A stretch of DNA of 48,706 nt. Source: an uncultured Oscillospiraceae bacterium (GTDB lineage Bacteria; Bacillota; Clostridia; Oscillospirales; Oscillospiraceae). Made by a program: the position numbers and the translations under genes. The first letter of the stretch is position 1. Each line of letters begins with the position of its first letter. Below the pieces are notes generated by a model. The model was not told where the DNA came from and ran no database searches. It saw nothing but the letters and a program-made list of their open reading frames with translations. Positions 23,167 to 42,935 of this stretch are shown here, piece after piece. The stretch lies in contig CANPYK010000016.1 in the NCBI GenBank assembly GCA_947588605.1, positions 1 to 48,706 on the forward strand, given 5' to 3'.

Positions 23167-25368
23167 TCAGAAGGTGATGTTGACCTCCGTGGTCAGGCAG
23201 TCACGGGAATTGCCGCCCACGTGGAGGCGGAAGAGGCCGGGCTCCAGGACGTATTCCCCGGCGTCGTTATAATAGCCCATGTCGGACTTTTGGAGGGTCA
23301 GAGTGATGGGCTTCGTCTCTCCGGGGGAGAGGCTTACCTTGGCAAAGTCCCGGAGCTCCTTCACCGGGCGGACGATGGAGGCGGTGACGTCCTGCATGTA
23401 GAGCTGGACAGTCTCCACGCCCTCGCGTGTCCCGGTGTTGGTGACGTCCACGGTGATTTGCAGCGCGTCTGGCTGTTCCTCCACCCGGAGGCGGTCGTAG
23501 GCGAAGGTGGTGTAGCTAAGGCCATGCCCGAAGGGGTAGAGAGCCTCAAACCCGGCGTCCAGATACCGGGAGGTGAACTTGCTCCTCCCGCCGGGACGGC
23601 CGGTGTTCATGTGGTTATAGTAAATGGGGCACATCCCCGTGACGGCGGGGAAGGAGGACGCCAGGCGCCCCTCCGGGTTTTTCTCACCCAAGAGGACGTT
23701 TGCCACGGCGGGACCCATCTCCACGCCCAGGTGCCAGCACTCCAGGATCGCCGGGACGTGCTGGGATTCCCACTGGAGCGCCAGGGGCCGGCCGTTCATG
23801 AGACACGCCACCACGGGTTTGCCGGAGGCCAGAAGCCGCTCCAGAAGCTCCCGCTGGTGTCCCGGCAGGGTGATGTCCGCCCGGGAGGCGGCCTCGCCGG
23901 ACATGGCGTCGGTCTCCCCCACCACGGCCACGATCACGTCGCCATACTGGCAGGCGGCGGCAACCTCCTCCTCGTTTATGTCCGTCTCCGGGCCGCAACA
24001 GGGGTAATATTGGAGCTGCGCCCCGGCCCGCTCCAGGCCCTCCTTGATGGAGACGCAGTCGGACTCCCGCCAGCTCATGGCCCAGGCGCCGATGATCTCC
24101 TCCCTGGAGGCGGCGAGCTGCCCCACCAGGCTGATTTTTTGGGACTTTTTAAGGGGAAGGACGTTCCCCTCGTTTTTGAGAAGGACGATGGATTTCTCCG
24201 CGGCCTCCCGTGCCAGGGCCCGGTGCTCCTCCGGCAGGACCTCGTAGCGGGACATGGCCTCCTCCGGGACGTAGGGGTGGTCGAAAAGCCCCAGCCACAT
24301 CTTCACGGACAGGATACGCTCCGCCGCCTCGTCGATGACGGACAGGGGCACCTCCCCCCGCTCCACAGCGGCCCTCAGGTGCTTTTTGTAGATCTGCGTG
24401 CCCATGTCCACGTCCATGCCGGCGTTGGCGGCATGGGTCCCGGCGTCGGGCTCCGTGGCGGCGATGCCGTGATTTACGCACTCGCGGATAGCGTTGGCGT
24501 CGGAGACCACAAAGCCGGGGAAGTTCCACGTCTCCTTGAGGATATGGCGGAGGGTGTAGGGATTCACGGTGCAGGGCACGCCGTTTAAGTCGTTGAAGGA
24601 GGCCATCGCCGTGGCGGCGCCGGCCTCCACCGCCGCCTTGAAGGGCGGCAGGTAGGCGTTATGGAGCATGGAGGGGGCCATGCTGACGGTGTTGTAATCC
24701 CGCCCGGCCTCACAGGCCCCGTAGGCCACATAGTGCTTGAGGCACGCGGCCACGTAATTTTCCGGGGAGGTCCTGTCCCCCTGGAGGCCCTTTATCTTGG
24801 CCTTGGCAAATTGGGACACCAGATACGGGTCCTCCCCCGGCCCCTCGGAGACCCGGCCCCAGCGGGCGTCCCGGGCCACGTCCAGCATGGGGGCGAAGTG
24901 CCAGTTGACCCCCTGGGTCCGGGACTCCTTGGCCGCCATCCGGGCGGTGCGGGTAAAGAGGTCCGGGTCGAAGGTCCCGGCCTCGGCAATGGCGATGGGG
25001 TAGACGGTGCGGTAGCCGTGGATCACGTCGAGGCCGAACATCAGGGGGATGCCCAGGCGGCTTTCCTCCACGGCGATCTTCTGGAGCTCATTGGCCTTCC
25101 GGGGATCCTGCACCATCAGGGAGCCCACAAGGCCGGCGCGGATGTCGTCCTCGTGGTAGTCCTGCTGGGCGGTGGACATGATCTTTTCAAACTCCTCCTG
25201 GGAGATGCGCCCGTCGGTCATCATCTCGATGAGCTCCTCAAAGGGCACGTCGAAGCCGCCCACGATGGAGACGGACTCCTGGTTCATCTGGCCGATCTTC
25301 TCCTCCAAGGTCATCTGGGAGAGAAGCTCCTTTACCCTGGCTTTTTGCGCGTCAGTCAGGCGGTACAT
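23167..25368 (-). CDS. GH3 family beta-glycosidase
   Basis: 733 residues without signal peptide, so cytoplasmic. The (beta/alpha)8 domain (about 15-330) has the nucleophile Asp290 in GFVVSDANAIRE (the usual SDW is SDA here), LKHYVAYG at 210-217 and DVARDARWGR. An alpha/beta sandwich follows (about 370-570), and a C-terminal fibronectin-III-like domain (about 620-730). The family removes terminal beta-glucose or beta-xylose. AGGAGG precedes ATG 25368; it is the last gene of the operon, 13 bases behind the flavoprotein gene. Confidence 0.92.
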   Translation of the reverse strand: MYRLTDAQKARVKELLSQMTLEEKIGQMNQESVSIVGGFDVPFEELIEMMTDGRISQEEFEKIMSTAQQDYHEDDIRAGLVGSLMVQDPRKANELQKIAVEESRLGIPLMFGLDVIHGYRTVYPIAIAEAGTFDPDLFTRTARMAAKESRTQGVNWHFAPMLDVARDARWGRVSEGPGEDPYLVSQFAKAKIKGLQGDRTSPENYVAACLKHYVAYGACEAGRDYNTVSMAPSMLHNAYLPPFKAAVEAGAATAMASFNDLNGVPCTVNPYTLRHILKETWNFPGFVVSDANAIRECVNHGIAATEPDAGTHAANAGMDVDMGTQIYKKHLRAAVERGEVPLSVIDEAAERILSVKMWLGLFDHPYVPEEAMSRYEVLPEEHRALAREAAEKSIVLLKNEGNVLPLKKSQKISLVGQLAASREEIIGAWAMSWRESDCVSIKEGLERAGAQLQYYPCCGPETDINEEEVAAACQYGDVIVAVVGETDAMSGEAASRADITLPGHQRELLERLLASGKPVVACLMNGRPLALQWESQHVPAILECWHLGVEMGPAVANVLLGEKNPEGRLASSFPAVTGMCPIYYNHMNTGRPGGRSKFTSRYLDAGFEALYPFGHGLSYTTFAYDRLRVEEQPDALQITVDVTNTGTREGVETVQLYMQDVTASIVRPVKELRDFAKVSLSPGETKPITLTLQKSDMGYYNDAGEYVLEPGLFRLHVGGNSRDCLTTEVNITF

Positions 25369-25381
25369 AGCGGCCTCCTTT

Positions 25382-26341
25382 TTATTCGGCGTAGCCGATG
25401 TAGGGCTTCAGGCGCTCCTTGAGGTCCGGGATCTGGCCGGGGCCCACGGCCTGGGTCTTGATCTCCGTGGAGTGCTCTAACTTCCCGGCCCAGCGAAGGC
25501 GGGAGCGGTCCTGCTCCTCCTTGGTGTAGTGGACGTGAATGGTGCCGTCTCCGTCCACATGGAGCGTGCCGTAGCTGCCGCAAACGGGGCACTCCACGCT
25601 CTTGCGGTCGGGGAGGATGTTCACCATGTCGAGGTGGCAGACGGGGCAGACGCCCTCGGTGTCCCCGCGCCAGCTCGTCCGCTCCTCCTCGGTCCCGGCG
25701 TCCAGGGCGGCGGTGATATTCCGGCCCAGCTTGCGGGAACGCTCCATCTGCGCGTCGTTGCCCAGGACGTGCTCATAGGCCATGGCGCCCCAGTATTTTT
25801 GCATGTCGATGACGTCGATGCCCATGGAGAAGGTGATCTCATACATCATCGGGAGCATGAACTCCAGCCAGTTTTCGGTCATGGCGCCGCCCACGGCGAT
25901 GAACGCGCCCACGCGCTTTTTGAAGGAGCGGGGGTCGGGGAGCTTGTCGGGGTCCTTGCCGGTGGCAAGGCCCTCCTCGTAGGTGGACTTGCGGAAGGTG
26001 ATATCGTGGGAGGGGCCGATACGGTCGCAGACCGTCTTGAACCGCCCGGTGGGGCTGGTCTCGTAGGTGGGACAGCCCACGATGAGGCCGTCGCACTCCA
26101 TCAGCGCCTCGTCCACGATGTGGAAGTCGTCCTTCAAAACGCAGCCGCCCTTGCCGCGCCCGGTGGTCATGCCCACCACGCAGGAGATGCACCCGGTGCA
26201 GGGCTTGATGTCCAGGTCGTCCACGTGGATGAATTTCACCTCACAGCCAGCCTTCTCGCACTCCATGAGGGCGGCCTTGACCATGATGTCGCAGTTCTTG
26301 TTCCGACGGCCAAAGGAGAGGCCCAGGACTTTCTTCGCCAT
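25382..26341 (-). CDS. Iron-sulfur flavoprotein-type NAD(P)H-dependent FMN reductase
   Basis: 319 residues. The N-terminal flavodoxin-like domain (1-200) starts VLGLSFGRRNKNCDIMVKAAL; CTGCISC (48-54) is the iron-sulfur flavoprotein-type cysteine cluster and GCPTYETSPTGRFKTVCDR the FMN-binding loop. The C-terminal region adds a rubredoxin-like zinc or iron site: CPVC (about 231-234) and CPVCGSYG (about 251-258). It could pass electrons from the adjacent iron-sulfur proteins to an organic substrate. The start ATG 26341 has AGAGG upstream. The role in aglycone reduction is inference. Confidence 0.78.
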   Translation of the reverse strand: MAKKVLGLSFGRRNKNCDIMVKAALMECEKAGCEVKFIHVDDLDIKPCTGCISCVVGMTTGRGKGGCVLKDDFHIVDEALMECDGLIVGCPTYETSPTGRFKTVCDRIGPSHDITFRKSTYEEGLATGKDPDKLPDPRSFKKRVGAFIAVGGAMTENWLEFMLPMMYEITFSMGIDVIDMQKYWGAMAYEHVLGNDAQMERSRKLGRNITAALDAGTEEERTSWRGDTEGVCPVCHLDMVNILPDRKSVECPVCGSYGTLHVDGDGTIHVHYTKEEQDRSRLRWAGKLEHSTEIKTQAVGPGQIPDLKERLKPYIGYAE

Positions 26342-26406
26342 AGAAAAAACCTCTTTTCATTATAATTTTTCCGTTTTTCCCTCCCTTCTTAGGGAGGGAA
26401 AAAGAT

Positions 26407-27588
26407 TTAGTCGCGGAAACGGCCCACCTTCGTGGGGCGCTGGGGCGTGTGGGGGACGCGGCCCGTGGTGATGATGAGGGCCCCGTCACGGCAGACCTTG
26501 GCGCACTCGCCGCACTTGGTGCAGTCGAAGTCGTCCACGGTGTGGATGTACCCGGGGCGGCCCTCGATGCACCCGTGGGGGCAGGCGTGGAGGCACAGAC
26601 AGCAGCCGGTACACTTCCTGGGGTCTATGTAGATGTTCACCAGCTTCACACAGGCGGCGGCGGGGCACTTTTTCTTCTTGATGTGGGCCTCGAACTCCTG
26701 GGGGAAGCTGTCCTGGGCCGAGAGGGCGATCTTAGAGGCGTTCTGCCCCATGGTGCAGGGGGTGGAGAAGGCCATGGCCTCCCCGATCTCGTGGGTGAAG
26801 TCGGTGTACTCCTGCTTCCCCCGGCCTTCGGTCATCTCCCGGTGCTCGTACTCCAGCTGTAAAAGCCCCTCCCGGCAGAAGACGCACTTGCCACAGGAGC
26901 GCGCGCGGGAGGCGAGGAGCCGCTTTTGCGTCTCGGCCACCACGCAGTCGTGCTCCCGGAGGACCCGGACGACGCCGTTGGCGAGGTTGGTCTCCTCCAC
27001 GGTGAGAGCGGCGTCCTTCACGGGGCGCATCTCGTAGCCAAGGATCAGGCCCTTGGCGCCCGTGAGGTCGCAGAGGTCGGAAATCTTTGTGCCGTCGGTG
27101 ACCCTTTTGACCTCCCCGCCGTCCACGCTGACCCACACGCCGGGGGTGTAGTCCCCCTCAATGGCGTGGGCAAGGTCGGCGCAGGTGGCGATGTGCAGAA
27201 GAAGGGCGTTTTCGTTCTCCCGGACGTTCACAAACTCGCTTTTTACCGTGACGCCGTACTCCCCGGCCAGAGGCCGGAGCGTCTCCGCCAGCTCCTCCCG
27301 GTTTTCGGGGACGTACAGGGTCTTGTTTTCAGTCCCCAGTACCGCCGCGGCGGCGGTGAGGCCGCGCATCACGGCCTCCGGGTCGCGCTCCAGGACCTGG
27401 AGCAGGACCATGTCGGTGTCGGCGTTGTTGAGGGCGGCGGCCACGGCGGTCTTGTTCTGCTCGATGGCGTCGCACAGGCTGTCGGCCAGGTTCCCTCCGG
27501 TTAGACCGGTTTCCCGGATGTTCATGGCGTGGGCTTTGTTGATGAGGGCCTTGACCCCCAGGTCACGGAGCTTATCGAAAAAGTTCAT
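26407..27588 (-). CDS. NuoF-like iron-sulfur protein without FMN/NADH site
   Basis: 393 residues from ATG 27588 (GGAGGG within the end of the upstream gene). An SLBB-like stretch (YTPGVWVSVDGGEV, 147-160), the NuoF [4Fe-4S] motif SCGKCVFCREG (231-241) and a C-terminal 2[4Fe-4S] ferredoxin domain (CTGCCLCLHACP 326-337; CTKCGECAKVC 356-366) are present. The Gly-rich GRGGAGFP FMN/NADH motif of true NuoF is missing. It is therefore likely an electron-relay subunit that depends on the partner encoded just upstream, which has nucleotide-binding folds. The gap between the genes is two bases. Confidence 0.75.
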   Translation of the reverse strand: MNFFDKLRDLGVKALINKAHAMNIRETGLTGGNLADSLCDAIEQNKTAVAAALNNADTDMVLLQVLERDPEAVMRGLTAAAAVLGTENKTLYVPENREELAETLRPLAGEYGVTVKSEFVNVRENENALLLHIATCADLAHAIEGDYTPGVWVSVDGGEVKRVTDGTKISDLCDLTGAKGLILGYEMRPVKDAALTVEETNLANGVVRVLREHDCVVAETQKRLLASRARSCGKCVFCREGLLQLEYEHREMTEGRGKQEYTDFTHEIGEAMAFSTPCTMGQNASKIALSAQDSFPQEFEAHIKKKKCPAAACVKLVNIYIDPRKCTGCCLCLHACPHGCIEGRPGYIHTVDDFDCTKCGECAKVCRDGALIITTGRVPHTPQRPTKVGRFRD

Positions 27589-27590
27589 GT

Positions 27591-29702
27591 TCAGCCCTCC
27601 TTCCCGGCAAAGTCGCCCCAGACGTGCGGGCGGGATATTTTGAGTCTCAGATCGCACTGGAGACATCTGGCGGCCTCGCCGCAGACGCCCTCACAGGTCA
27701 ACCCGTGATCAAACTGGTTGAAGTTGTCCTGCCGCGCCTGGGCGCTGTCGATCTCCGGCTTGCCCCGCTCCAGATGTCCGAAGCCGTCCACGTGGCCGAT
27801 ATAGGCCGGGGCGTCCTGCGCCGGGGCCAGCGTCTCGGAGATGTCCCCGTCGCCGCCCAGGTATTTGTCGATCTGGCTGGCGGCCTCCCGGCCGGAGGCA
27901 ATGGCCTGAATGACGGATTTTGTTCCGTAAATCGCGTCGCCGGCGGCGAAGATGCCGGGGACGCTGGTGGATTTGTCGCTCTCCATATCCGTGACGGCGA
28001 TGGAGTTGGCCCGGCCAAGGGTGAGGCCGCAGTCGGGGGTCAAATCCGGGCGCTGACCGGTGGCGAAGATGACGGTGTCGGCGTCCAAGTGGTGCTCGCT
28101 CCCCGGCTCTTTCTTGATGATGGCCCGGCGGTTTTCGTCGAAGGTGAAGGACTCCACGTTCATGAAGTCCACGCCGGTAACGTGTGTCTCACCGGTGATG
28201 CGCTCGAAGGTCTGGGCCGGGTGGACAAAGATGCCCTCCTCCTGGGCCTGCTCTATCTCCTCGTCGTCGGCGGTCATCACGTTCCTGGCCTCCAGGCACG
28301 CGAGGTGGACCTCCTCCGCGCCCAGCCTCTTGGCGGTGCGGGCGCAGTCGAAGGCCACGTTGCCGCCGCCCAGGACGATGACGCGCTTGCCCATGCCGGT
28401 CTCCTGCCCCATGGAGGCCTTCCTGAGAAAGTCGATGTTCACCAGCACTCCCGGCAGGTCGTTGCCCTGCATGGGCAGGCGCACGCCGTTGGTGGTGCCC
28501 ACGGCCATGAGGACCGCGTCGTACTCCTTCAAAAGCTCCACGGGCTTTTCCACCTTGCAGTTCGTCTCAAGCTTCACGCCCTGGTCGGCGATGACCTGTG
28601 CCTCGGCGGCCACCACCTCGCGGGGCAGGCGGTAGGAGGGGATGCCGTAGCTCATCATGCCGCCCACCGTGGGCAGGGCCTCCTTGACGGTGACGTCGTG
28701 GCCCTGCTTGCGGAGGTAGTAGGCCGCCGTGAGGCCGGCGGGCCCGCCGCCCACCACGCACACCTTTTTGCCCGTGTCGGGGAGCTGCTTGCCCTTGCCG
28801 CGCCAGTACTTGCCGGTGTCGCCCTCGGCGGCGGCGCGCTTGATGCCTCGGATGGACATGGCCTCGTTGACCTCGCCCCGCTTGCATTTAAGCTCGCAGA
28901 CGTGGTTGCAGATGAGGCCCAGAGTGTGGGGGAAGGGGGCCTTCTCGCGGATGACCGCGGCGGCGGCCTCAAAGTCGCCCTGTTTCACAAAGCGGATGTA
29001 CCGGGGCACGTCGGTGTGCGCGGGACACGCGGCGCGGCAGGGGACGATGGCGTCCTCGCGCCCCGCTCCCGTGGCGATGAGCTTATCCCGGATGGTGCCG
29101 GTGGGGCAGACCTCGGCGCAGGCGCCGCAGAAGCGGCAGTCAGCGTCGATGAGGAGCTTGTCGTGGAGGGTGCCCACGTACGTCTCCATGTCCCGCTTGT
29201 TGTAGCGGAGGACCTTCACGCCTCGAAGCTCGTTGCAGGCCCGGACGCACCGGCCGCACAGGACGCAGCGGTTCATGTCGTGGAGGATGAGGGGGTTGCG
29301 TTCCTCCGGGGCGAAGCCCTTGGAGCGCATTTTGAGACGCCCCGTCTTGGGGCCGATGTACTGAATGAGCATCTGGAGCTCGCAGTTGCCGTACTTGGGG
29401 CAGGTGGAGCAGTCCTCCGGGTGGCCGGTGAGCAGAAGCTCCAGGGCCAGCATCCGAAGCCTATCGATCTCAGGGGATTTGGTGCGTATCACAAGCCCGT
29501 CCTCGGCCTTCAACGTGCAGGAGGGGGTGACGCCCTCCCGTCCCTCCACCTCCACGATGCACATCCGGCAGGAGCCCAGGGGGCTCAAGTCCTTGTGGTG
29601 GCACAGATGCGGGATGTAGATACCGTTCTCCAGGGCGCAGTCCAAAATGTTGGCGCCGTCCGGGACGGTGAGCTTTACGCCGTCTATTGTGATCTTTGCC
29701 AT
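27591..29702 (-). CDS. NuoG-type ferredoxin domains fused to GltD-like FAD/NAD(P)H dehydrogenase
   Basis: 703 residues. In order: [2Fe-2S] domain (Cys34, 45, 48, 62); NuoG His-Cys [4Fe-4S] (His94, Cys98, 101, 107); 2[4Fe-4S] ferredoxin (Cys146-156 and Cys189-199); GltD-type cysteine region (222-273); FAD fold GGGPAGLTAAY (about 318-328); NAD(P)H fold VIVLGGGNVAFD; and GIFAAGDA near the end. It should take electrons from NAD(P)H, or give them to it, and pass them along the clusters. The start is ATG 29702 with AGGAGG; the longer upstream frame runs into hairpin element C. It forms a complex candidate with the next two genes. Confidence 0.82.
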   Translation of the reverse strand: MAKITIDGVKLTVPDGANILDCALENGIYIPHLCHHKDLSPLGSCRMCIVEVEGREGVTPSCTLKAEDGLVIRTKSPEIDRLRMLALELLLTGHPEDCSTCPKYGNCELQMLIQYIGPKTGRLKMRSKGFAPEERNPLILHDMNRCVLCGRCVRACNELRGVKVLRYNKRDMETYVGTLHDKLLIDADCRFCGACAEVCPTGTIRDKLIATGAGREDAIVPCRAACPAHTDVPRYIRFVKQGDFEAAAAVIREKAPFPHTLGLICNHVCELKCKRGEVNEAMSIRGIKRAAAEGDTGKYWRGKGKQLPDTGKKVCVVGGGPAGLTAAYYLRKQGHDVTVKEALPTVGGMMSYGIPSYRLPREVVAAEAQVIADQGVKLETNCKVEKPVELLKEYDAVLMAVGTTNGVRLPMQGNDLPGVLVNIDFLRKASMGQETGMGKRVIVLGGGNVAFDCARTAKRLGAEEVHLACLEARNVMTADDEEIEQAQEEGIFVHPAQTFERITGETHVTGVDFMNVESFTFDENRRAIIKKEPGSEHHLDADTVIFATGQRPDLTPDCGLTLGRANSIAVTDMESDKSTSVPGIFAAGDAIYGTKSVIQAIASGREAASQIDKYLGGDGDISETLAPAQDAPAYIGHVDGFGHLERGKPEIDSAQARQDNFNQFDHGLTCEGVCGEAARCLQCDLRLKISRPHVWGDFAGKEG

Positions 29703-29724
29703 TGAAAAACCTCCTTTTGATAAG

Positions 29725-29885: not shown

Positions 29886-29898
29886 TAAGGTTTTGTTT

Positions 29899-30837
29899 CT
29901 ATTGAAGCAGGAGCGCCGCCGCGCCGTACATACCGGCGTCCGCGCCGAGGCCTGCCAGGACGATCTTTGTATCCTCGCAGGCGTGGAAGGCAAGCGCCCT
30001 GAAGTGACGCTCCACCCCGGCGCGCAGAAACTCTCCCGCCTTGGAGACGCCCCCGCCGATGACAAACACCTCCGGGTCGATGACGGCGGCGATGTTGGCC
30101 AGCGCCGCGGCCAGGGTCCGGCAGAAGGTGTCCGTGATCTCCGATGCCAGCGCGTCCCCGGCCTTTGCCGCCGTGAAGACGCGCTCACAGGTGAGCTCGT
30201 CCGTCTCCCGGAGGACGCTGGGGGCGCCGCTTTGGGCGAGGGCCCTCCGGGCCAGCCGCACGGTCCCGGTGGCGGAGGCGTACTGCTCCAGGTGCCCGCG
30301 CTTGCCGCAGCCGCAGGGGTCAGGCTCGTCGGGGGCCATGACCATGTGCCCGATCTCCCCGCCCGCGCCGTGGACGCCGGGGACGACGCGGCCGTTCAAA
30401 AGGATGCCGCCGCCAACGCCGGTGCCCAGCGTCACCATGACCAGGTTTTGAAACCCCCGTCCGCCGCCCTGCCACTGTTCACCCAGGGCCGCCACGTTGG
30501 CGTCGTTCCCCGCCCGGACGGGCAGGCCCAGCAGTTTGGACAGCTCGTCGGAGACGTTGAAGACGCCCCAGCCCAGGTTCACGCACCTTCGCACCGTCCC
30601 ATCGGCCAGCACGGGACCGGGGACGCCCAGTCCCACGCCCGCGATGTCCTCACGCCGGAGGCCCTTTTGGGCGATTTTAGCGTCTATGGACGCGGCGATG
30701 TCCGGGAGGATGGCCGCGCCGGCGTTTTCCCGGCGGGTGGGGATCTCCCAGCTTTCCAAAAGCTCCCCGGTTAGCTCAAAGAGGCCGAGCTTGACCGTGG
30801 TGCCGCCTACGTCCACGCCGAAGCCGTATTTTCTCAT
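29899..30837 (-). CDS. ROK family sugar kinase (glucokinase type)
   Basis: 312 residues. It has an N-terminal ATP site FGVDVGGTTVKLGLF and a ROK zinc motif region CGCGKRGHLEQYAS, where the third Cys of CxCGxxGCxE is His; EIGHMV-type sugar-binding and GAGGEIGH are present. It phosphorylates a hexose, probably glucose, in the cytoplasm. The start ATG 30837 overlaps the stop of the FAD oxidoreductase gene (ATGA), so translation is coupled. It would trap glucose released by this operon. Confidence 0.88.
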   Translation of the reverse strand: MRKYGFGVDVGGTTVKLGLFELTGELLESWEIPTRRENAGAAILPDIAASIDAKIAQKGLRREDIAGVGLGVPGPVLADGTVRRCVNLGWGVFNVSDELSKLLGLPVRAGNDANVAALGEQWQGGGRGFQNLVMVTLGTGVGGGILLNGRVVPGVHGAGGEIGHMVMAPDEPDPCGCGKRGHLEQYASATGTVRLARRALAQSGAPSVLRETDELTCERVFTAAKAGDALASEITDTFCRTLAAALANIAAVIDPEVFVIGGGVSKAGEFLRAGVERHFRALAFHACEDTKIVLAGLGADAGMYGAAALLLQ

Positions 30838-34364: not shown

Positions 34365-35327
34365 TCACTTTTCAAGATTTTTTGTCATGAGCGCCACGAA
34401 GTGCCGCAGCTGCTCCTCGCTGTCGATGGTCTCATCGAAGTGGTGGCCCTCGTACTCGCTGGCGATATAGCCCTTATAGCCCAGGCGCTTGACCTCGGCG
34501 ACGATCTCCTCAAAGGGGATGCAGGGGTCGTGGTCGTCGTTGTCCAGATAGTAGAACTTGCCGTGCATATAAAAGGCGCAGTCGATCATGTCCTTCCACT
34601 GCTCCATCTTGGCGGGGGCGGAGAACTTGCCGAACATCTCCTCGGCGGTGTGCTTCTCGATCTCGTTGAAGTCGCCGTTTGCCACCACGGAGTAGTCGGC
34701 CTTCTGGCGGTGGAGCTCCACGATCTCCGCCAGCTTCTCCGGGCGGCAGCCAAAGGAGATCGCCTGGTCGAGATAGAGCTTATGGGGCATGGTCTGGAAG
34801 ATGGAGAAGTCGGGGACGAACCCGAGCCAACCCCTGCCCTCGCCCTTCATGATCTCGAAGTACTCCTTCCAGACGGGCACCTCCGGGTGGTGGGGATGGT
34901 GCATCTCGATGGTGAGCTTGACGCCAAGCTGCTTGCAGTACGGGAGCATTTCCCGGAAGATTTTCGGGGAGATGGCGTGCTGGGTGCGGACCATGGGGAA
35001 CCCGGCCTTCTTGGCGTAGATGAGGTCGTTGACGGTGAACTGGACGATCTCCTCCTCGGTGAGGTCCCGGTCGCCCCGGATGCCCATGTCGATGTAGGCG
35101 CTCCAGCAGACGGGCTCCAGCTCGTATTTGGTCAAAAGCGCCTTGCACTCGGCGAGCCACTCATCGGAGGGGTAGGGGTATTCGGGGACCATCTGGGCGG
35201 CCACGATCTCCACGCCCTGGTAGCCCATGTCATGGGCCTTCTTCAAGATGCCCTCGAAGTCCAGCTTTTCATGGATGAATTCGGTGGAGAAGCTGTAGAG
35301 GGAGATACCCAATTTGATGTCGTTCAT
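34365..35327 (-). CDS. C-glycoside deglycosidase alpha subunit-like (DgpC/DfgA/CarC type)
   Basis: 320 residues of xylose-isomerase-like TIM barrel. Candidate metal ligands and catalytic residues: Glu141 and His143 (LTIEMHHPHH), Asp173 (FVPDFS), His255 (YMHGKFYYL) and Glu291 (ASEYEGHH). In characterised enzymes this subunit, with a metal ion and a histidine base, eliminates the aglycone from a 3-oxo-C-glucoside. The assignment rests on fold plus the adjacent beta-subunit gene (15 bases upstream). GGAGGT precedes ATG 35327. Keto-O-glycoside lyases share this fold, so O-glycosides remain possible substrates. Confidence 0.75.
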   Translation of the reverse strand: MNDIKLGISLYSFSTEFIHEKLDFEGILKKAHDMGYQGVEIVAAQMVPEYPYPSDEWLAECKALLTKYELEPVCWSAYIDMGIRGDRDLTEEEIVQFTVNDLIYAKKAGFPMVRTQHAISPKIFREMLPYCKQLGVKLTIEMHHPHHPEVPVWKEYFEIMKGEGRGWLGFVPDFSIFQTMPHKLYLDQAISFGCRPEKLAEIVELHRQKADYSVVANGDFNEIEKHTAEEMFGKFSAPAKMEQWKDMIDCAFYMHGKFYYLDNDDHDPCIPFEEIVAEVKRLGYKGYIASEYEGHHFDETIDSEEQLRHFVALMTKNLEK

Positions 35328-35342
35328 TGTCGTTACCTCCTG

Positions 35343-35759: not shown

Positions 35760-35774
35760 GTTGTGTTCCTCCTT

Positions 35775-36827
35775 TTATAGCTTCACGGCCTCGTGGGTGG
35801 CCGCGGAAAGTCTGATGGCCTCCATGACCTCCAGCACCCGCCGGACCTCCGGCAGGGTCACCGCGTCCGGCTCCCGGCCCTCCCTGGCGGCCAAGTAGTG
35901 GACGAAGAAGTCCCGGTGGACGGTGTGGACCTCCGGCAGGGGCTCGGTGTAGAGCAGTCCCGGCTCCGGCTCGCCGAAGCTCCTGGTGGGCCCGGCGCTG
36001 GTCATGGTGAGCTTTCCGGGGACGCTCTTCAAAAGGTGCCGGGTGCGGACGATCTGCCCCTCCGTGTTGCCCTGGGCCCGGAAGGTGCCGTCGATGACGG
36101 CGCTGCCCGTGGTGCCGCCGATGAACCAGGCACGCTTGGGCGTCAGATAGTAGGTCCCCAGCTCGATCTCCGCCGTCATGCCGGAGGCGTACTCAAAGAC
36201 GATCTTGAAGTAGTCGTCCACCCGCTGGTTGATGACGTTTTTAAGGTCGGCGTAGACGGAGACGGGCTTTTCATCCGTCATCCACAGGATCTGGTCGATG
36301 AGGTGGACGCCCCAGTCGTAGAGCATCCCGCCGCCCTTTTCGGGGTAGACGTGCCAGTCGTGCATGTTGCCGTTAAAGCCGTAGAGCTGAGATTTGATGA
36401 TGTAGGGCTTTCCCACCAGGCCCTGGCGCAGGACCTCCTTCATGGTGGCGTAGTCCACGTCCCAGCGCCGCTGCTGGTGGACGGTCATGTGAACGCCGGC
36501 GGCGTTCACGATCTCCACCATTTTGTCAAACTCCGCCACCGTCATGGCGGCGGGCTTTTCAAGCAGGATCTGCTTTCCGGCGGCGGCGCACTTCGTCACC
36601 ATCTCCAGGTGCAGGTCGTTGGGCACGGCGATGATGACGGTGTCCACGTCGGCTTTTTGAAGAAGTTCCCCGGCGTCAAGGTACGTCTCCACCCTCTCCG
36701 GGGCGTCGATAAGCTGCTCCGGCACGGTGTCGCACACGGCACGAAGCTCGATCTCCGGCAGGGTGGCCAGCATGTTGGCGTGCTCTTGGCCCATGAAGCC
36801 GAAGCCGATGATTCCTATTTTGATCAT
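35775..36827 (-). CDS. Gfo/Idh/MocA family dehydrogenase B
   Basis: 350 residues from ATG 36827 (GAGGT seven bases before; the longer frame upstream overlaps the PhlG-like gene's end and lacks a site). IGIIGFGFMGQEHANML is the nucleotide fold, LEKPAAM contains Lys91, and GGGMLYDWGVHLIDQ holds Asp171 and His175. It belongs to a different subgroup from dehydrogenase A. It probably oxidises the glycoside at C3 or reduces the released 3-keto-sugar; the two enzymes could form a redox cycle. Confidence 0.85.
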   Translation of the reverse strand: MIKIGIIGFGFMGQEHANMLATLPEIELRAVCDTVPEQLIDAPERVETYLDAGELLQKADVDTVIIAVPNDLHLEMVTKCAAAGKQILLEKPAAMTVAEFDKMVEIVNAAGVHMTVHQQRRWDVDYATMKEVLRQGLVGKPYIIKSQLYGFNGNMHDWHVYPEKGGGMLYDWGVHLIDQILWMTDEKPVSVYADLKNVINQRVDDYFKIVFEYASGMTAEIELGTYYLTPKRAWFIGGTTGSAVIDGTFRAQGNTEGQIVRTRHLLKSVPGKLTMTSAGPTRSFGEPEPGLLYTEPLPEVHTVHRDFFVHYLAAREGREPDAVTLPEVRRVLEVMEAIRLSAATHEAVKL

Positions 36828-36844
36828 TGTGTTACCTCGAATTC

Positions 36845-37717
36845 TCAGTGGGTCTCTTTCCAGAAATCCCCAATGTTGCGGAACATATTGGCCGTCTCCC
36901 ACAGGCTGTGGCGGGCCAGGAGCTGACAGAAGGTCAGGTCTACGCTCTTTCCCCGGTGGGGCTTCACCACGGTCCTCCCGTTTTCAAAGGACGCCCCCAC
37001 CCAGAAGGTGACCCGCGTCTCGTAGGCGTCGGGGAGCACCCGGTAATAGCAAAGCTCGGTGACATATAAGGGCTCCGCGTCCGGCGCATGAAGCGGGTGG
37101 CAAAAGGTGTTGGCCCCCGTGAGGCCGATGCAGGCTTTGTCGCCGGACCCCACGCGCAGACCCACCTTCTCCGGGGTCATGCCCTCGTAGAAACGGATGA
37201 GGGAGAAGCCGTTCCCCACGTCCTCAATGGCGCAGTCGGCGTAGTGCCGCAGATGTGCGCCGGGGCACCAGAGCTTGTAGTACATGTCACCGGGCGGGTT
37301 GAAGTTCTCGATGAAGTGGGCCACCATCTCCGGGGTAATACCGTGGCTCGTGACGGTCGCCGTGGCAAAGCCCACGCCGTTGGGCATCACGCAGTAGCCC
37401 GTGCGCACCGGGCAGCAGCCGGGGATGTCCATGGCCTCGGCGTAGTCCTCGATGAGGAAGGCGTCCCTGGGGTCCATCTGCGCCCCCGCCTCCACTTGCC
37501 TGAGGTCCCGCTCCTCCGGCATCACCAGGCCCTTGTAGTAGTATTTGGCGTAGGGGCTCTCCCGCTCCTCCGGCGTTAAGTCGGAGGTCAGCTCAAGGAT
37601 CTCGCCGTAGTGCGCCCGGTCGGGGCTCAGAAGCTGACAGTCCTTGGGGAAGAGGATGGGCCGCTCCTTGTGGAAGGGCACATCCCAGCGCCACTCTTTT
37701 TTCATATCAAAACTCAT
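36845..37717 (-). CDS. PhlG/phloretin hydrolase-like zinc C-C hydrolase
   Basis: 290 residues, the size of 2,4-diacetylphloroglucinol hydrolase PhlG and of gut phloretin hydrolase. Visible: SHGITPEMVAHFIENF (His125), CPGAHLRHYADCAIEDVG (His154, His158, Glu165) and the C-terminal pair His270-x3-Glu274 in LLARHSLWETANM, the zinc-binding pattern of PhlG. The family cleaves a C-C bond between a phloroglucinol ring and an acyl chain. Within an operon for glycoside deglycosylation it would act on an acylphloroglucinol or dihydrochalcone aglycone. It overlaps the DUF1097 gene by four bases. The function is inferred from family, not from context alone. Confidence 0.7.
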   Translation of the reverse strand: MSFDMKKEWRWDVPFHKERPILFPKDCQLLSPDRAHYGEILELTSDLTPEERESPYAKYYYKGLVMPEERDLRQVEAGAQMDPRDAFLIEDYAEAMDIPGCCPVRTGYCVMPNGVGFATATVTSHGITPEMVAHFIENFNPPGDMYYKLWCPGAHLRHYADCAIEDVGNGFSLIRFYEGMTPEKVGLRVGSGDKACIGLTGANTFCHPLHAPDAEPLYVTELCYYRVLPDAYETRVTFWVGASFENGRTVVKPHRGKSVDLTFCQLLARHSLWETANMFRNIGDFWKETH

Positions 37718-38247
37718 TTGGAGTTTGTCTCCTTTCCTGCTAAAATGACCCGCCGCCAGAGCCCCACGAGGGCCCTTGTCAGCGCGTCCACGCCCCAGCC
37801 GGCGTAGAGGACGCCCACGGCCATGGCCGCCGCCAGCTCCAGGGGCAGCGCCCCCGCGCCCGAAAGGCCGCCCCCGCCCATGACCGTGAGGCCCATGGCC
37901 CAGCCGGTGAGCATGGCCGGGACATGGACGCGAAGGGCCGTCCCTACGATGACCGCCGCGCCCCCCAGGACGAAGAGCGTCACAAAGAGGGCGGCGTTCG
38001 GCGGAAGGGGCAAATTCTCAAAGCCCCAGAGGGCCGCGAGGCTCCAAAGGTCTCCCACCCAGAAGCCCAGGGTCATGGGGACGATGTTGCGGGCGCTGTT
38101 CCCGGCCGAGGCGTAGACCCCGGCGCATATGAGCGCCACGGGGGCCACGGTGATCCCCAGGGCCGGGCTCACCAGCCCCCAGATGGGAGGCAGGAGCGCC
38201 ACGGCCAGGGCCAGCGACGATATATGGAAAAGCGTTTCTCTCCTCAT
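37714..38247 (-). CDS. DUF1097 family membrane protein
   Basis: 177 residues with about five or six hydrophobic helices (roughly 8-25, 30-48, 55-75, 85-105, 110-130, 135-160) and almost no loops. It matches DUF1097, whose members are small inner-membrane proteins of unknown substrate. It is coupled by four-base overlaps to both neighbours (GH43 before, PhlG-like after), so its role is within the same pathway, perhaps export or uptake of an aromatic product. Confidence 0.72.
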   Translation of the reverse strand: MRRETLFHISSLALAVALLPPIWGLVSPALGITVAPVALICAGVYASAGNSARNIVPMTLGFWVGDLWSLAALWGFENLPLPPNAALFVTLFVLGGAAVIVGTALRVHVPAMLTGWAMGLTVMGGGGLSGAGALPLELAAAMAVGVLYAGWGVDALTRALVGLWRRVILAGKETNSK

Positions 38248-39863
38248 TTGCCTGTGTGTTCAAACCAGTCGAAGGCGGCCTCGTTCTGGCTGTCCGTGCC
38301 GTTGCCGGAGGCGAAGACGCCCACCATGGTCCCCACCATACAGCCCACCTTCTCCGGGTTGATGGCGTACCCGTCGGCCTGGGCCAGGACCTCCAGATGG
38401 TCCCTGTCGGGGCCGTAGAGGAAGGTGTAGGCGTTGCCCTCCATCCGCAGGGCCAGGACCACGTTTCCGGGGACCAGGTCCGTCCGGGCGAGAACGCTGA
38501 CGCGCTCGCGCGCCTCAAAGGTGGGGATGTAGGAGGGAACGTCGAAATCGGAGGTCTGGAGTACCAGCCGCAGGCTTTTGACGCCGTCCACATTGGCGAT
38601 CTCCAGGCGGTACTGGTGGTTCATGGCCTGCCGGACCACAAGGCCGGCGGTCTCCCCTCCCTCCGGCTCGAAGGTCATCTGCGCGGCCACGTATTCGCTG
38701 GGTTCCCGTTGCCTCTGGCACAGGGCCGGGGCGAAGTAGTCATACGCCACCGTGTGGACGAAGCCCTCATGCCGCAGCTTCTCCGCCATGGCCTGCCGGA
38801 TGCACCGCAGATAGAGGCGCGAGTCCGCGACCCTCCAGAATTTCGTGTACGGCCGGCCCCAGAAGGACCAGTCCAGGCCCAATTTTTCGGAGTCAAAATC
38901 GTTTACCGGGTCTTTTGCCGGGAAGGGGTGCTCCGGGAGGTCCGGCGCGGGATACTCCCACTCCAGTTTCCCCGTCTCCGGGGAGAAGAGGGGCCAGCCC
39001 CGCTCCCATTGGACCGGGCAGATGTACGTCTCCCGGCCCATATTCTTGCTGACGCCGTCCACGAGCCGCGAGGCCAGCATCACGGCGTACCAGCTCCCGT
39101 CGGGCAGCTCCACAAGGTCGGCGTGGCCCACGTTGCCGATGGGGCACCGATAGCCCATGTGCCGGTGGGTGATCACCGGGTTGGCGGGGTTATTCTCGTA
39201 GGGTCCGAAGACGTTCTTTGCCCGCGCCACCGTGGCGGAGTGGTAGTGCTCCGTGCCGCCCTCGGCGATGAGCAGGTAGTAGTACTCCCCGATGTGGTAG
39301 AGGTGCGGCGCCTCCGGGGAGGCCGCGCCGGCGAACGCGCCGCCGAAAATCGCCACGGGCTCGGAGGCCATTTTGTAGTTTTCAATGTCGAACCTCGCCA
39401 CCCAGATGCCCTGCCTAAGGCCGCCCTGGCCGTCGGGCCAGTTGTTGCCGGTGCCCATCACATAGCACTGGCCGTCCTCGTCGAAAAAGAGGGAGGCGTC
39501 GATCCCCGGCACGTCCCGGAGCCAGTGGGGCTGAGACCAGGGGCCGGCGGGGTCCTTCGCCGTAACGATGTAGTTGCCGTCGTGGGAGAAATTCGTGTTG
39601 ATGATGTAATATGTACCGTCGTGGTAGCGGAGGGTGGGGGCCATGACGCCGCCGTTCATGCAGTTGCGCTCCACGTGGAAGCCGTTTTCGGCGGTCATGG
39701 CGTAACAAAGCTGCTCCCAGTTCACCAGGTCCTTTGAGTGGAAGACGGGGATACCGGGAAACTCCTCAAAGCTGGAGCACGCGAGATAGTAGTCCTCCCC
39801 CACCCGGCAGATGGAGGGGTCCGGGTAAAAGCCGGGAATAATGGGGTTTTTCAACGTCGCCAT
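38244..39863 (-). CDS. GH43 family beta-xylosidase/arabinofuranosidase
   Basis: 539 residues, no signal peptide. The five-bladed propeller (1-310) has Asp15 (GFYPDPSICR), Asp122 (GIDASLFFDEDG) and Glu184 (SPEAPHLY), the expected GH43 triad. The C-terminal beta-sandwich (about 325-539) is the xylosidase accessory domain (GLVVRQAMNHQYRLEI). It removes beta-xylose or alpha-arabinose residues in the cytoplasm. Such pentoses decorate many plant flavonoid glycosides and xylo-oligosaccharides. It is eleven bases behind the GH35 gene and overlaps DUF1097. Confidence 0.92.
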   Translation of the reverse strand: MATLKNPIIPGFYPDPSICRVGEDYYLACSSFEEFPGIPVFHSKDLVNWEQLCYAMTAENGFHVERNCMNGGVMAPTLRYHDGTYYIINTNFSHDGNYIVTAKDPAGPWSQPHWLRDVPGIDASLFFDEDGQCYVMGTGNNWPDGQGGLRQGIWVARFDIENYKMASEPVAIFGGAFAGAASPEAPHLYHIGEYYYLLIAEGGTEHYHSATVARAKNVFGPYENNPANPVITHRHMGYRCPIGNVGHADLVELPDGSWYAVMLASRLVDGVSKNMGRETYICPVQWERGWPLFSPETGKLEWEYPAPDLPEHPFPAKDPVNDFDSEKLGLDWSFWGRPYTKFWRVADSRLYLRCIRQAMAEKLRHEGFVHTVAYDYFAPALCQRQREPSEYVAAQMTFEPEGGETAGLVVRQAMNHQYRLEIANVDGVKSLRLVLQTSDFDVPSYIPTFEARERVSVLARTDLVPGNVVLALRMEGNAYTFLYGPDRDHLEVLAQADGYAINPEKVGCMVGTMVGVFASGNGTDSQNEAAFDWFEHTGK

Positions 39864-39873
39864 AAGTCTTTCC

Positions 39874-41415
39874 TCAATACTTGAAGAGCTCCACCATCAA
39901 AACAGTGAGGTTGTCGCCTAAGTGCAGGGACATCTTCTCGTCGCCGTTGAGGATGCGGCCCGGGACAAACTCGCCGCCCTTCACCGTGCCCTCCTGAAGC
40001 TTCAAAATGTCGATTTTCACGTTCTCGCCGGGTTTGGCCCGGAAGGTGAGGCCGCTGCGCATCCCGATCACCAGGAACTTATCCGGCTTCAGCTCGTAGA
40101 TGAGGCCCACGGGCAGGGGCTTGCCGGAGATGCGGGGGTCGTAGGACACGGCCAGATCGTACTTCTCCAAATTGAGGAACGCGCCGTAGTCGATCTCACT
40201 CTTGCGCAGCCAGGTCTTCAGCTTCTCCGTGCCCCGGCACTTGAGGTAAAGGGGCTCCATCTCCCGCACCATCCCGTAGGCGTCCCGCAGATGTCCGGCG
40301 CTGCCGGTCATGTCGAAGGCGGAGGGGTCGATGTTGAGAGCCATCATCACCTCCATGGGTGGCACGTCGATCATCTCCTGGGGCAGGGTGATCTCCTCGA
40401 TGCCGAAGGGCGAGTAGCAGATGGCGTTGTGCCGGCCGAAGGCGTAGAGGCAGTAGGAGGCGGTGACCGCGTCCTTGCGGACCTCGGGAATCACTAAGGG
40501 GTTGCCCTCATAGGCGTATTCATCCAGGATCTGCGCCACGTAGGACACGTAAATGTCCGGCCCGAAGGTGAAGAGGGACGGGGCCGCGATCTTCCAGATG
40601 GGGTGCATGGTCCGCACCGGCCCGCCGGAGGGGTAGGACCCGGTGTACCAGGGGTACTGGCGGAGCCAGCAGTTGGCGTAGCACGGGATGGGGTACTGGG
40701 CACGGCCGGCGGAGGCGATCTTCTCCACGGCGCAGCCGAAGTGCCAGGCCATGAAGGACTCCTCGGCGTCCGCACCGAAGGCCTCCCGCCATGTGCCGGC
40801 AACGCCCAGGCCCTGAGCCAGCTTTTCGGGGACGGGGCCCTCGAAGAGCTCACTCGCCAGCTCCCCGTAGTCGCGCTCGGTGCCCATGACGCCGATCTCG
40901 TTCTCCACCTGCATGAAGATGACGGTGGACTGCTCGCTGTCGATGTCTCTAAGGTGCGCCATTACGTGGGTGAAGGCGTTCACGTCCTTGGCGACCGCCG
41001 CCTCGCACAGGGGCGACACAGTGTTGATGGGCTCGCCCGAGACTTTGCGGACGCGGAAATATTTTTCGCTGTCCCGCTTCATCCAGCCGGGGATGTACAT
41101 GGACTCGGCGTTCTTCCAGAGGCCGAACCAGAGGAACACAAGGTGCATATCCCGCTCCCTGGCCTGGGCGATGAGCCCGTCCATGAGCGTAAAGTCAAAC
41201 CGTCCCTCCTCCGGCTCCACGCACTCCCAGTAGAGGGGCAGGATGACGGTGTTCATATTCAAATTCACAAGGTTGGGCCAGACGTTCTTCTCCATGTACT
41301 CCAAGGAACTTGCGGAGGAGTTGTGGAGCTCGCCGCCCAGGGCGAAGAAGGGCTTGCCGTGGACAAATAAGGTGGGGATGCCGTTCAAATCGCGGATTTC
41401 AGGGATCTGGGCCAT
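39874..41415 (-). CDS. GH35-like beta-galactosidase family protein
   Basis: 513 residues. TIM barrel with FALGGELHNSSAS at the start, acid/base Glu173 in QVENEIGVMG and candidate nucleophile Glu311 in PLVIPEVRKD, the pattern of GH35/GH42-like enzymes with a DUF5597-type C-terminus. It lacks a signal peptide, so it acts on imported small substrates, probably removing beta-galactose or a related sugar. The start ATG 41415 has GGAGAAAA upstream. An intercistronic hairpin separates it from the transporter gene. Confidence 0.82.
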   Translation of the reverse strand: MAQIPEIRDLNGIPTLFVHGKPFFALGGELHNSSASSLEYMEKNVWPNLVNLNMNTVILPLYWECVEPEEGRFDFTLMDGLIAQARERDMHLVFLWFGLWKNAESMYIPGWMKRDSEKYFRVRKVSGEPINTVSPLCEAAVAKDVNAFTHVMAHLRDIDSEQSTVIFMQVENEIGVMGTERDYGELASELFEGPVPEKLAQGLGVAGTWREAFGADAEESFMAWHFGCAVEKIASAGRAQYPIPCYANCWLRQYPWYTGSYPSGGPVRTMHPIWKIAAPSLFTFGPDIYVSYVAQILDEYAYEGNPLVIPEVRKDAVTASYCLYAFGRHNAICYSPFGIEEITLPQEMIDVPPMEVMMALNIDPSAFDMTGSAGHLRDAYGMVREMEPLYLKCRGTEKLKTWLRKSEIDYGAFLNLEKYDLAVSYDPRISGKPLPVGLIYELKPDKFLVIGMRSGLTFRAKPGENVKIDILKLQEGTVKGGEFVPGRILNGDEKMSLHLGDNLTVLMVELFKY

Positions 41416-41471
41416 GGGTTTTCTCCTTTCTCATTCAAAACAAAGGCGGACAATGGGCAAATTTAACGGAG

Positions 41472-41502
41472 GGGGCCTGTCTTATGGTTTAAGGCAGGCC
41501 CC
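41472..41502 (-). terminator. Intercistronic hairpin between transporter and GH35
   Basis: GGGGCCTG.CTTA / TAAG.CAGGCCCC with a short loop and one internal mismatch. No long T tract follows, so it may be a partial terminator or mRNA-stability element that sets transporter and enzyme levels apart. Confidence 0.45.
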
Positions 41503-41528
41503 GATCATAAGGGGAGGGGGTTATCCGA

Positions 41529-42935
41529 TCACTTGTGATCCCAGGCGTGCTTGCCGGCGTCCAGGTCGGCGCGGATCTCGGCGACCTTCTTGTCGTTGAG
41601 CTTGTAGAGGAACACGGGGATCAGGGAGACGATGGCGAGGATGGCGGGGAGGATGTTGACCATGAAGTTGATGCCGGTCTTGGTGGCGGCGGTCTGCTCC
41701 ACGTTGGGGACATAGCCCACGGCCTCGATAAGCACGATCACGGGAGCGCAGAGGGCGGTGGCCAGCTTCACGCCGAAGCTGAGCATGGAGGCCGCCAGGC
41801 CCTCCTGGCGCTTGCCAAGCTTCCAGGCGCCGTACTCGATGGAGTCGCCCACCATGCCGTAGCAGATGGCCGGAGCGCCGAAGCCCAGGGCTCCCAGGAA
41901 GGAGAGGCCGCAGATGACGTACATGTTGTTGGAGGGGAAGATGAACAGCAGGACGAAGCCCAGAGCCATGATCAGGTTCATGATGATCATGTAGTTCTTC
42001 TTGCCGAAAATCTTGGTGCCGAAGGGGACGGTCAGCGTGCCCACCAGCTGTCCGATGGTCATGGAGGTGAACACGGGCCCGATGAGATCGAAGCTGCCCA
42101 CCACATAGATGACGTAGTAAGTAAGGATGCCGTAGCGGCCAGTGACGCAGATGGTGCCGGCCACGGTGGCCAGGACCACCATGAGGAGCTGGTCGTTCTG
42201 GACCAGGGACTTGAGGTTCTGGAGGAAGCTGGTCTTCTCGGCGGGGGCGCTGGAGTGGAGCTCGCTTGTGTACTTCTCCTTGCACCCGGCGGCGCACAGC
42301 CAGAAGATGGGGATCATGGCGACGGAGGCGATGACGGCGGCCATGAAGTAGCCGTGGGCGTCGGCGGAGGCCTCGCCGGTGACGGGGTTGATGATGGGGT
42401 TCACGGTGAACGCCTTCATGATCTTGGGCACGGCGGCGGAGAGGATGATGCCGATAACCGAGGAGCCCACGCTGCGGGCGGTGGCCAGGTTCTGGCGGAC
42501 GCGGGAGTCAATGGCGATGACGTTCTGCAGGGCCTGATAGGCGATAGAGCAGGCGGTGTAGGCCATGCCGGTGCCCACGTAGCAGATAAGGCACAGGACC
42601 GCTTTCATCACGCCCTTCACGGGGAAAACGGTGAAGGTCAGGATGTTGAAGATGGCCAGGAACGGCGGCGCCATGTAGAGGTAGGGACGGAAGCGGCCCC
42701 AACGGGTGTTGGTGTGGTCGGCGATGTTGCCCATCATGGGGTCGTTGATGGCGTCCCAGATACGGGCGATAGCCACGATGATGGTGATGGCCACACCCGT
42801 CAGGCCCACGATATCTGTGTAGAACAGATTAAGGTAGGAGTTGACCATGTACCAGCTCATCTGGCACCCGACTTCTCCCAGCGCGTAGGCCGTCAACAGC
42901 TTGGGACTTGTTTTTTCCTTGGTTGGACTGCTCAT
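41529..42935 (-). CDS. GPH-type MFS glycoside:cation symporter
   Basis: 468 residues with twelve predicted membrane helices. AYALGEVGCQMSWYMVNSYLNLFYTDIVGL at the start and WDAINDPMMGNIADHTNTRWGRFRPYL (MelB motif region) identify the glycoside-pentoside-hexuronide:cation symporter family. It imports a glycoside with sodium or protons. It is the first gene of the operon, 377 bases from the divergent regulator. Confidence 0.93.
   Translation of the reverse strand: MSSPTKEKTSPKLLTAYALGEVGCQMSWYMVNSYLNLFYTDIVGLTGVAITIIVAIARIWDAINDPMMGNIADHTNTRWGRFRPYLYMAPPFLAIFNILTFTVFPVKGVMKAVLCLICYVGTGMAYTACSIAYQALQNVIAIDSRVRQNLATARSVGSSVIGIILSAAVPKIMKAFTVNPIINPVTGEASADAHGYFMAAVIASVAMIPIFWLCAAGCKEKYTSELHSSAPAEKTSFLQNLKSLVQNDQLLMVVLATVAGTICVTGRYGILTYYVIYVVGSFDLIGPVFTSMTIGQLVGTLTVPFGTKIFGKKNYMIIMNLIMALGFVLLFIFPSNNMYVICGLSFLGALGFGAPAICYGMVGDSIEYGAWKLGKRQEGLAASMLSFGVKLATALCAPVIVLIEAVGYVPNVEQTAATKTGINFMVNILPAILAIVSLIPVFLYKLNDKKVAEIRADLDAGKHAWDHK

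Follow-up and report, generated by a model that had tools for sequence, protein, structure and literature searches.

The window analysed here is a 48,706-nucleotide stretch of contig CANPYK010000016.1 from an uncultured gut bacterium of the Oscillospiraceae (GCA_947588605.1). It holds a sixteen-gene operon that probably encodes a self-contained pathway for C-glycosyl flavones, and perhaps for related C-glycosyl flavonoids, with a C-glycoside deglycosidase (CGD) pair and its oxidases in one gene series with a flavone-reductase-type (FLR-type) protein, a PhlG-type C-C hydrolase and a redox set built around an FAD protein (Table 1). The prediction rests on gene order, protein families, folds, conserved residues, conservation in relatives and the absence of old yellow enzyme (OYE)-type reductases from the host genome; the reactions of the individual enzymes, the substrate, a common transcript and, more than anything else, the part played by the FAD protein and the path of the electrons are inferred from these.

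The sixteen open reading frames (ORFs) all lie on the minus strand, from 42935 to 23167, and are separated in that order by 113, 10, -4, -4, 17, 15, 15, 10, 12, 23, -4, 196, 2, 65 and 13 nt. As an earlier sequence-only reading of the window had described, the genes are tightly packed: 12 of the 15 gaps, three ATGA overlaps included, are under 25 nt (the exceptions being 113, 196 and 65 nt), a count that assumes an ATG start for the DUF1097 gene at 38247 and becomes 11 of 15, with a 41-nt gap, at the gene caller's preferred GTG at 38202. The gene caller also places four starts better inward, at 36827 for GfoA, 34354 for GfoB, 29702 for the NuoG-GltD fusion and 27588 for the NuoF-like protein. 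A consensus scan of both strands of 23000-42950 found no sigma-70-like promoter, and its sole minus-strand terminator-like match falls inside the GH43 coding sequence. The operon has a GC content of 63.5%, against 58.1% for the remainder of the window that was tested. Pfam and structure matches bear out the importer, the three exo-glycosidases, the two DgpA-type oxidases, the DgpB/DgpC pair, the kinase and the PhlG-like hydrolase named in that reading; the one exception among its gene classes is an FMN_red protein, which has a flavone-reductase fold.

The beta subunit of the presumed CGD was the protein for which the lack of a deglycosidase-family match had been named beforehand as a refutation, and it matches PF19906 (the CGDB family) at 118.3 bits against a cut-off of 27.6, with 9m3a_B and 7bvr_B (DgpB) as its nearest PDB chains. 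In the alpha subunit, which matches no NCBIfam family at E 0.001, alignment to 7bvr and motif positions place E141, D173, H255, K257 and E291 at E147, D179, H269, K271 and E305, the metal ligands of the CGD alpha subunit (PMC8563793, in part). The assignment of the pair to the DgpBC/DfgAB type of C-glycoside deglycosidase is supported, and cleavage of 3''-oxo-C-glycosides is its predicted activity. Both Gfo/Idh/MocA proteins are closest, among solved structures, to characterised DgpA proteins (GfoB to 7xr9, GfoA to 9m37). The match of the second sugar TIM barrel, TIM2, to the '2-hydroxy-3-keto-glucal hydratase' 8ro4 is weak and ranks after 2zds, a structure of unknown role; homologues of TIM2 (51-65% identity) and GfoB (27-70%) occur together at 5 of 15 fetched CGD loci (L030-L034), in keeping with a part in handling the sugar that is released. 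CGDB proteins are rare: at E 0.001 they were found in 12 of 300 family genomes, the host included (11 above the cut-off), and in none of the five congeners shown. The closest pair among the fetched loci (79% and 70%; L037:2625-5980) is followed by an S15-family hydrolase and then by an FLR-type gene truncated where the contig ends, and has no PhlG gene. Two genomes of one genus, G059 and G140, each yielded 14 scored CGDB matches, with 14 candidates scored out of 15 in the first and out of 31 in the second, which suggests specialisation on keto- or C-glycosides.

The FLR-type protein bears on the likely substrate. For its structure model the FLR fold ranks first among 350,542 chains, with the next far below, and the protein fits the FLR layout of a WrbA-like N-terminal domain and a C-terminal extension (about 310-320 aa). 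Asp103, Gly106, Trp149, His271 and Ile275 are flavin- or substrate-site residues of FLR (PMC7862272, in part); D106/G109 and H290/I294 of the present protein keep the 3- and 4-residue spacings of Asp103/Gly106 and His271/Ile275, a match of spacing and not of residues aligned to FLR itself, and the tryptophan corresponding to Trp149 is offset (GGAMTENW, versus GGSDW in some relatives). We also considered that this gene might encode an ordinary FMN reductase belonging to an electron chain, and dropped that reading on the strength of the fold match. What had been called a three-protein electron chain thus turns out to be two electron-transfer proteins plus a putative flavone-reductase-type protein, for which reduction of apigenin to naringenin is predicted. 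Of the substrate class first proposed, C-glucosyl dihydrochalcones or flavones, this identity shifts the likely substrate towards C-glycosyl flavones and makes dihydrochalcones less likely.

Genes of this type also stand near PhlG-type genes more often than expected. Among 48 FLR-type hits (35 full length) from 200 genomes and PF18089 hits from 300 genomes, five FLR-type genes have a PF18089 gene within 12 kb, on their own strand in every case, where a rough random-placement figure gives about 0.64; second segments of one gene (G033, G139) are excluded from the count, and one of the five pairs is that of the window, while congeners supply two. In G118 (L088) a homologue 32% identical to the FLR-type protein opens the gene order FLR-like, OYE, Phy, and G030 (L085) has an FLR-like gene followed by PF18089, alcohol dehydrogenase and OYE genes.

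The PhlG-like protein scores above the gathering threshold of PF18089, and its model shares the fold of phloretin hydrolase and PhlG, in which we take the zinc ligands to be four, H, E, H and E. H155, H270 and E274 are invariant in all 16 aligned sequences, and E165, the probable fourth ligand, varies across the set. Relatives in an order-level sample are distant only and occur in 10 of 394 genomes, the host included; a scan of viral contigs found none. At L081-L084, which have a PhlG match (L083 an MFS match also), tblastn shows no operon-like context. Together with the CGD genes, a PhlG-type hydrolase could serve an operon for C-glycosyl dihydrochalcones or benzophenones (nothofagin-, aspalathin- or iriflophenone-like) by acting directly on the released acyl-phloroglucinol, with the FLR/FAD set, for example, dumping electrons on a cinnamoyl compound. 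Phloretin hydrolase does cleave the dihydrochalcone phloretin itself (PMC8398226, in part), and at L075-L078 the redox set occurs with no PhlG or CGD match (with an S15-type hydrolase by Pfam at L076). Yet an FLR-type reductase would have no evident role in such an operon, where its gene is nonetheless kept at a nonsynonymous-to-synonymous ratio (dN/dS) of 0.17-0.20, and the co-occurrence of FLR-type and PF18089 genes also speaks against this alternative, which we regard as unlikely.

Genes for the FAD protein, the ROK kinase, the NuoG-GltD fusion and the NuoF-like protein stand between the CGD half of the operon and the FLR-type gene. OYE-type enzymes contain PF00724 (Oxidored_FMN), a family that Fcr and EnoR presumably carry and that is present at L088. 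It is absent from the host genome (2.34 Mb, 99.84% complete) and from the related genome G651, which also bears the operon, and is not among the families of the operon proteins (which for the 731-aa protein means the top 25 of its 27). Fcr is described as an FAD-dependent alpha/beta-barrel protein (PMC11868195, in part). Since no Fcr/EnoR-type enzyme was found, the ring-opening step falls to what we infer about the FAD protein, and the earlier description of a complete C-glycoside degradation system is supported for deglycosylation, its completeness depending on that step. Among solved structures the FAD protein matches 1qo8 (E 1.6e-41). A fumarate- or cinnamate-type reductase is a less likely reading of it, as the alignment to 1qo8 gives Y412/G413 and L455 at the carboxylate-binding positions, which we presume to be those of the His and Arg with that role; the catalytic Arg was not placed with certainty. 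The NuoF-like protein has 6 Pfam families at E 0.001, and the FMN/NADH domain PF01512, expected of a complex I NuoF, is not among them.

At all five of the best non-self hits of the NuoF-like protein (L075-L079), genes for the FAD, NuoG-GltD and NuoF-like proteins share a locus, and at four of the five an FLR-type gene is on the same contig; the protein has a match in 195 of 200 genomes, most of the others listed covering only its C-terminal part. At L079 other genes occupy the roughly 4 kb that separate the FAD gene from NuoG-GltD, and the set is accompanied by a PF18089 gene with no CGD match, in a genome that is not among the CGDB-positive ones. Genomes with the redox set often have OYE genes elsewhere too, as do all five of G056, G038, G167, G063 and G166, so that replacement of OYE would be specific to the host genome and G651. 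FLR is reported to be unable to take electrons straight from NAD(P)H, and its electron transfer chain was left to explore (PMC7862272, in part). We advance tentatively, as a possibility that falls short of even, that the FAD protein, NuoG-GltD and the NuoF-like protein form an electron-transfer system, driven by NAD(P)H and not named before, that feeds FLR-type reductases and replaces OYE-type Fcr/EnoR in ring opening, and that, joined to C-deglycosylation, it would give one operon leading from import to phenylpropionate. It is the gene content that suggests both the supply of FLR and the replacement of Fcr.

In the proposed pathway the MFS_2 protein would import the glycoside, and the GH3, GH43 and GH35 enzymes would remove outer O-linked sugars inside the cell. 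Oxidation of the 3''-hydroxyl of the C-linked sugar by GfoA, GfoB or both would prepare the C-C glycosidic bond for the DgpB/DgpC-type pair, which is predicted to cut it by elimination. The released keto-glucal would be hydrated by TIM2 and reduced by a Gfo enzyme, and the sugar phosphorylated by the ROK kinase. The FLR-type protein would reduce the C2=C3 bond of the freed flavone. With electrons from NuoG-GltD and the NuoF-like protein, the FAD ene-reductase-like protein may then open the ring or reduce a chalcone in place of an OYE-type Fcr/EnoR, and the PhlG-type hydrolase would split the resulting dihydrochalcone into a phloroglucinol and a phenylpropionate.

Comparison of gene order in relatives, which the sequence-only reading had suggested, showed the arrangement kept. 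In G651 all genes except DUF1097, 15 of 16, follow one another in unchanged order on a single contig (L016, L086), and G652 has the same 15 genes on two contigs (L017, L087), both ending within TIM2. In all 28 comparisons of these 15 genes dN/dS lies between 0.05 and 0.29, lowest for the CGD alpha subunit (0.05-0.06) and for the FAD protein against L016 (0.06; 0.12 against L087). Kept order and low dN/dS, a sign of purifying selection, indicate that the arrangement is more than chance. Two unrelated adjacent units, a system for O- or C-keto-glycosides and a general aromatic ene-reduction module serving as an electron sink, would account for the fact that the halves also occur apart, as CGD loci without a redox-set match (L030-L034) and as the redox set without a CGD match (L075-L079), and a break in the transcript could lie in the 196 nt between ROK and NuoG-GltD. 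Against such a division stand the order kept on one contig in G651, the absence from that gap in G651 and G652 of the repeat that lies in it here, and the fact that the scan listed no minus-strand terminator-like site in any gap; moreover, the PhlG gene sits among the CGD genes and the FLR-type and GH3 genes lie at the far end, so that the two functions are interleaved. We consider two separate units improbable.

Several observations weigh against the single-pathway reading. The PhlG-like protein is only 22-31% identical to 12 other aligned PF18089-type proteins, neither it nor the FLR-type protein matches an NCBIfam family at E 0.001, and the structure models of the two are middling (pLDDT, the predicted local distance difference test score, of 66 and 70), the FLR-type tail of residues 283-319 that holds H290 and I294 being modelled below 50. 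The best NCBIfam match of the FAD protein, VprA (residues 7-476), reaches 292.7 bits, far under the equivalog cut-off of 600. Only 5 of the 48 FLR-type hits are near a PF18089 gene, so that most genes of the two kinds in these samples stand apart. The G652 operon is split over two contigs, and G652, which at 5.8 Mb may be a mixed bin, has three PF00724 genes as well as the operon; two other rabbit-gut genomes (L018, L019) hold partial or decayed versions only, and a weaker NuoG-GltD/NuoF-like locus at a contig edge of G653 (L023, L080) has no FAD match. Finally, the PhlG-like protein lacks about 25 residues that many relatives have after the first zinc histidine, an absence that might make room for a bulky ring in the active site and would fit a pathway in which the ring system is cut before the sugar is removed, flavone reduction and PhlG-type cleavage proceeding with the C-sugar in place and the CGD pair then freeing glucose from C-glucosyl phloroglucinol. 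This reverse order has no direct support and runs counter to the action of known CGDs on the whole 3''-oxo-flavonoid (PMC8563793, in part); we judge it very improbable.

Among known systems, the Dgp system of Dorea sp. strain PUE shares the DgpA-type oxidase and the DgpB/DgpC-type pair, GfoB being nearest to 7xr9 (DgpA) and CGD alpha to 7bvr. To these the present operon adds a second oxidase, three exo-glycosidases, the FLR-type and PhlG-type proteins and the redox chain, a comparison in which the PUE accessory genes enter by description only; the other genes of that cluster are transporters and accessory genes of unclear function (PMC8398226, in part). The Dfg system of Eubacterium cellulosolvens (DfgABCDE), which acts on isovitexin and homoorientin (isoorientin), likewise combines a deglycosidase, DfgAB, with a DgpA homologue, DfgE; it differs in having DfgCD, which deglycosylates O-glucosides, and the available part of the source names no aglycone-cleaving genes (PMC11170127). 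Clostridium butyricum encodes together flr, fcr and phy, for a flavodoxin-family FLR and a Phy of the 2,4-diacetylphloroglucinol (DAPG)-hydrolase superfamily as in the operon, in an order that L088 of G118 matches (PMC11868195, in part). Ring opening there is by Fcr, whereas the present genome has no PF00724 protein and the operon has FAD_binding_2 and two iron-sulphur proteins instead; only fcr and phy are proposed to share a transcript, and the part of that paper available does not mention C-deglycosylation genes. The genomes of Catenibacillus scindens and C. decagia encode the same functions (DgpBC, DgpA, FLR, Fcr and Phy), but in C. scindens the dgpA genes lie apart from dgpBC, and a joint operon with aglycone genes is not described in the text available (PMC11170127). 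VprA, a vinyl phenol reductase of the FAD_binding_2 family, is the nearest named relative of the FAD protein, which here is accompanied by NuoG-GltD and the NuoF-like protein. An uncultured Enterenecus species that is positively associated with mangiferin conversion is reported to have DfgAB homologues among its carbohydrate genes (PMC12101588, in part). In the open-licence literature, as far as its available text goes, we found no report of C-deglycosylation, aglycone cleavage and a redox chain in one operon, which agrees with the earlier suggestion that the combination is unreported, the accessory genes of strain PUE being outside that comparison. We take the operon to be a new combination of known modules, together with an unproven but testable redox module.

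Table 1. Features of the operon and its surroundings, in order of transcription of the operon, with the divergent regulator last.
Feature	Position	Strand	Evidence or remark
MFS_2 (GPH-type) protein, predicted glycoside importer	41529..42935	-	PF13347 E 1e-88
GH35/DUF5597 beta-galactosidase-like exo-glycosidase	39874..41415	-	PF18120, PF01301
GH43 beta-xylosidase/arabinosidase-like protein with C2 domain	38244..39863	-	PF04616 E 9e-84, PF17851
DUF1097 small membrane protein	37714..38247	-	PF06496 E 2.5e-14
PhlG/phloretin-hydrolase-type C-C hydrolase (predicted)	36845..37717	-	PF18089, fold
GfoA, DgpA2-type glycoside oxidase (Gfo/Idh/MocA)	35775..36827	-	9m37 'P581a DgpA2 and isoorientin complex' E 1.9e-116
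CGD beta subunit (DgpB-like), 138 aa	35343..35759	-	PF19906 E 2e-34
CGD alpha subunit (DgpC-like TIM barrel)	34365..35327	-	nearest structure 7bvr_A E 5e-63
GfoB, DgpA-type glycoside oxidase (Gfo/Idh/MocA)	33245..34354	-	7xr9 DgpA E 4.9e-174 over 360 aa
TIM2 sugar TIM barrel, proposed 2-hydroxy-3-keto-glucal hydratase	32312..33232	-	2zds E 1.2e-19; 8ro4 E 1.3e-7
FAD_binding_2 ene-reductase-like flavoprotein, proposed ring-opening or chalcone reductase	30834..32288	-	PF00890 E 7e-49
ROK sugar kinase	29899..30837	-	PF00480 E 1.6e-66
Dispersed palindromic MITE-like repeat between ROK and NuoG-GltD, in 196-nt gap	~29706-29890		limits approximate
NuoG-N + GltD fusion, proposed NAD(P)H entry point	27591..29702	-	Fer2_4, NADH-G_4Fe-4S_3, Fer4_20, Pyr_redox_2
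NuoF-C-terminus-like iron-sulphur protein	26407..27588	-	PF10589 E 1.7e-15, two PF00037 (Fer4) stretches
FLR-type flavone reductase (predicted)	25382..26341	-	FLR fold match
GH3 beta-glucosidase-like exo-glycosidase	23167..25368	-	PF00933, PF01915, PF14310
Perfect 13-bp hairpin 3' of GH3 (last gene)	23108-23140	-	terminator-like, without strong U-tract; read from sequence, not in terminator-scan list
AraC-type sensor + helix-turn-helix (HTH) fused to GH39 domain, likely 17th gene	43313..45736 (start 43313 or 43322)	+	AraC_binding, HTH_18 E 3e-24, Glyco_hydro_39 E 1.5e-33

The divergent AraC-GH39 gene is faced by a promoter-like site (11 of 12) at 43263-43291. Pfam finds the same HTH and GH39 architecture at L016 and, in other genera, at the CGD loci L035 and L030; L017 has a divergent ORF of similar length, and the GH39 domain may be sugar-sensing rather than catalytic. 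Downstream of the operon, at 17541-19461, an AraC/GyrI-like regulator adjoins a protein of the acyl-transferase family PF03417. The GH35/DUF5597 protein scores 480.8 bits against an NCBIfam GH35 family, slightly below the cut-off of 500, and inspection by eye found no obvious signal peptide in it. The DUF1097 gene has no match at L016 or L017.

The miniature inverted-repeat transposable element (MITE)-like repeat measures about 170-190 bp and has a second copy in the host genome (G000:C17:15434-15599). G651 has dozens of copies (at least 88 matches over the two orientations, from 40 scored candidates out of 199), one of them between GfoA and CGD beta (L016:9905-10073); as the repeat occupies different operon gaps in two species, the element seems to have moved independently. 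The genomes of L016-L019 are metagenome-assembled genomes, which we read as coming from rabbit-derived samples. At L018:7986-12484 intact PhlG, GfoA and CGD beta genes and then an alpha-subunit stub come after DUF1097 and a second FAD protein (50% identical), and at L019:8351-11124 the front half of the operon is decayed by several internal deletions, possibly an assembly error.

C-glycosyl flavones are abundant plant compounds that are closed to ordinary glycosidases. In the literature found, C-deglycosylation and aglycone breakdown belong to separate gene sets, and a joint operon would let the whole route be tested in one organism. The operon described here offers candidates for the electron donor of FLR and for ring opening in bacteria that lack OYE-type reductases.

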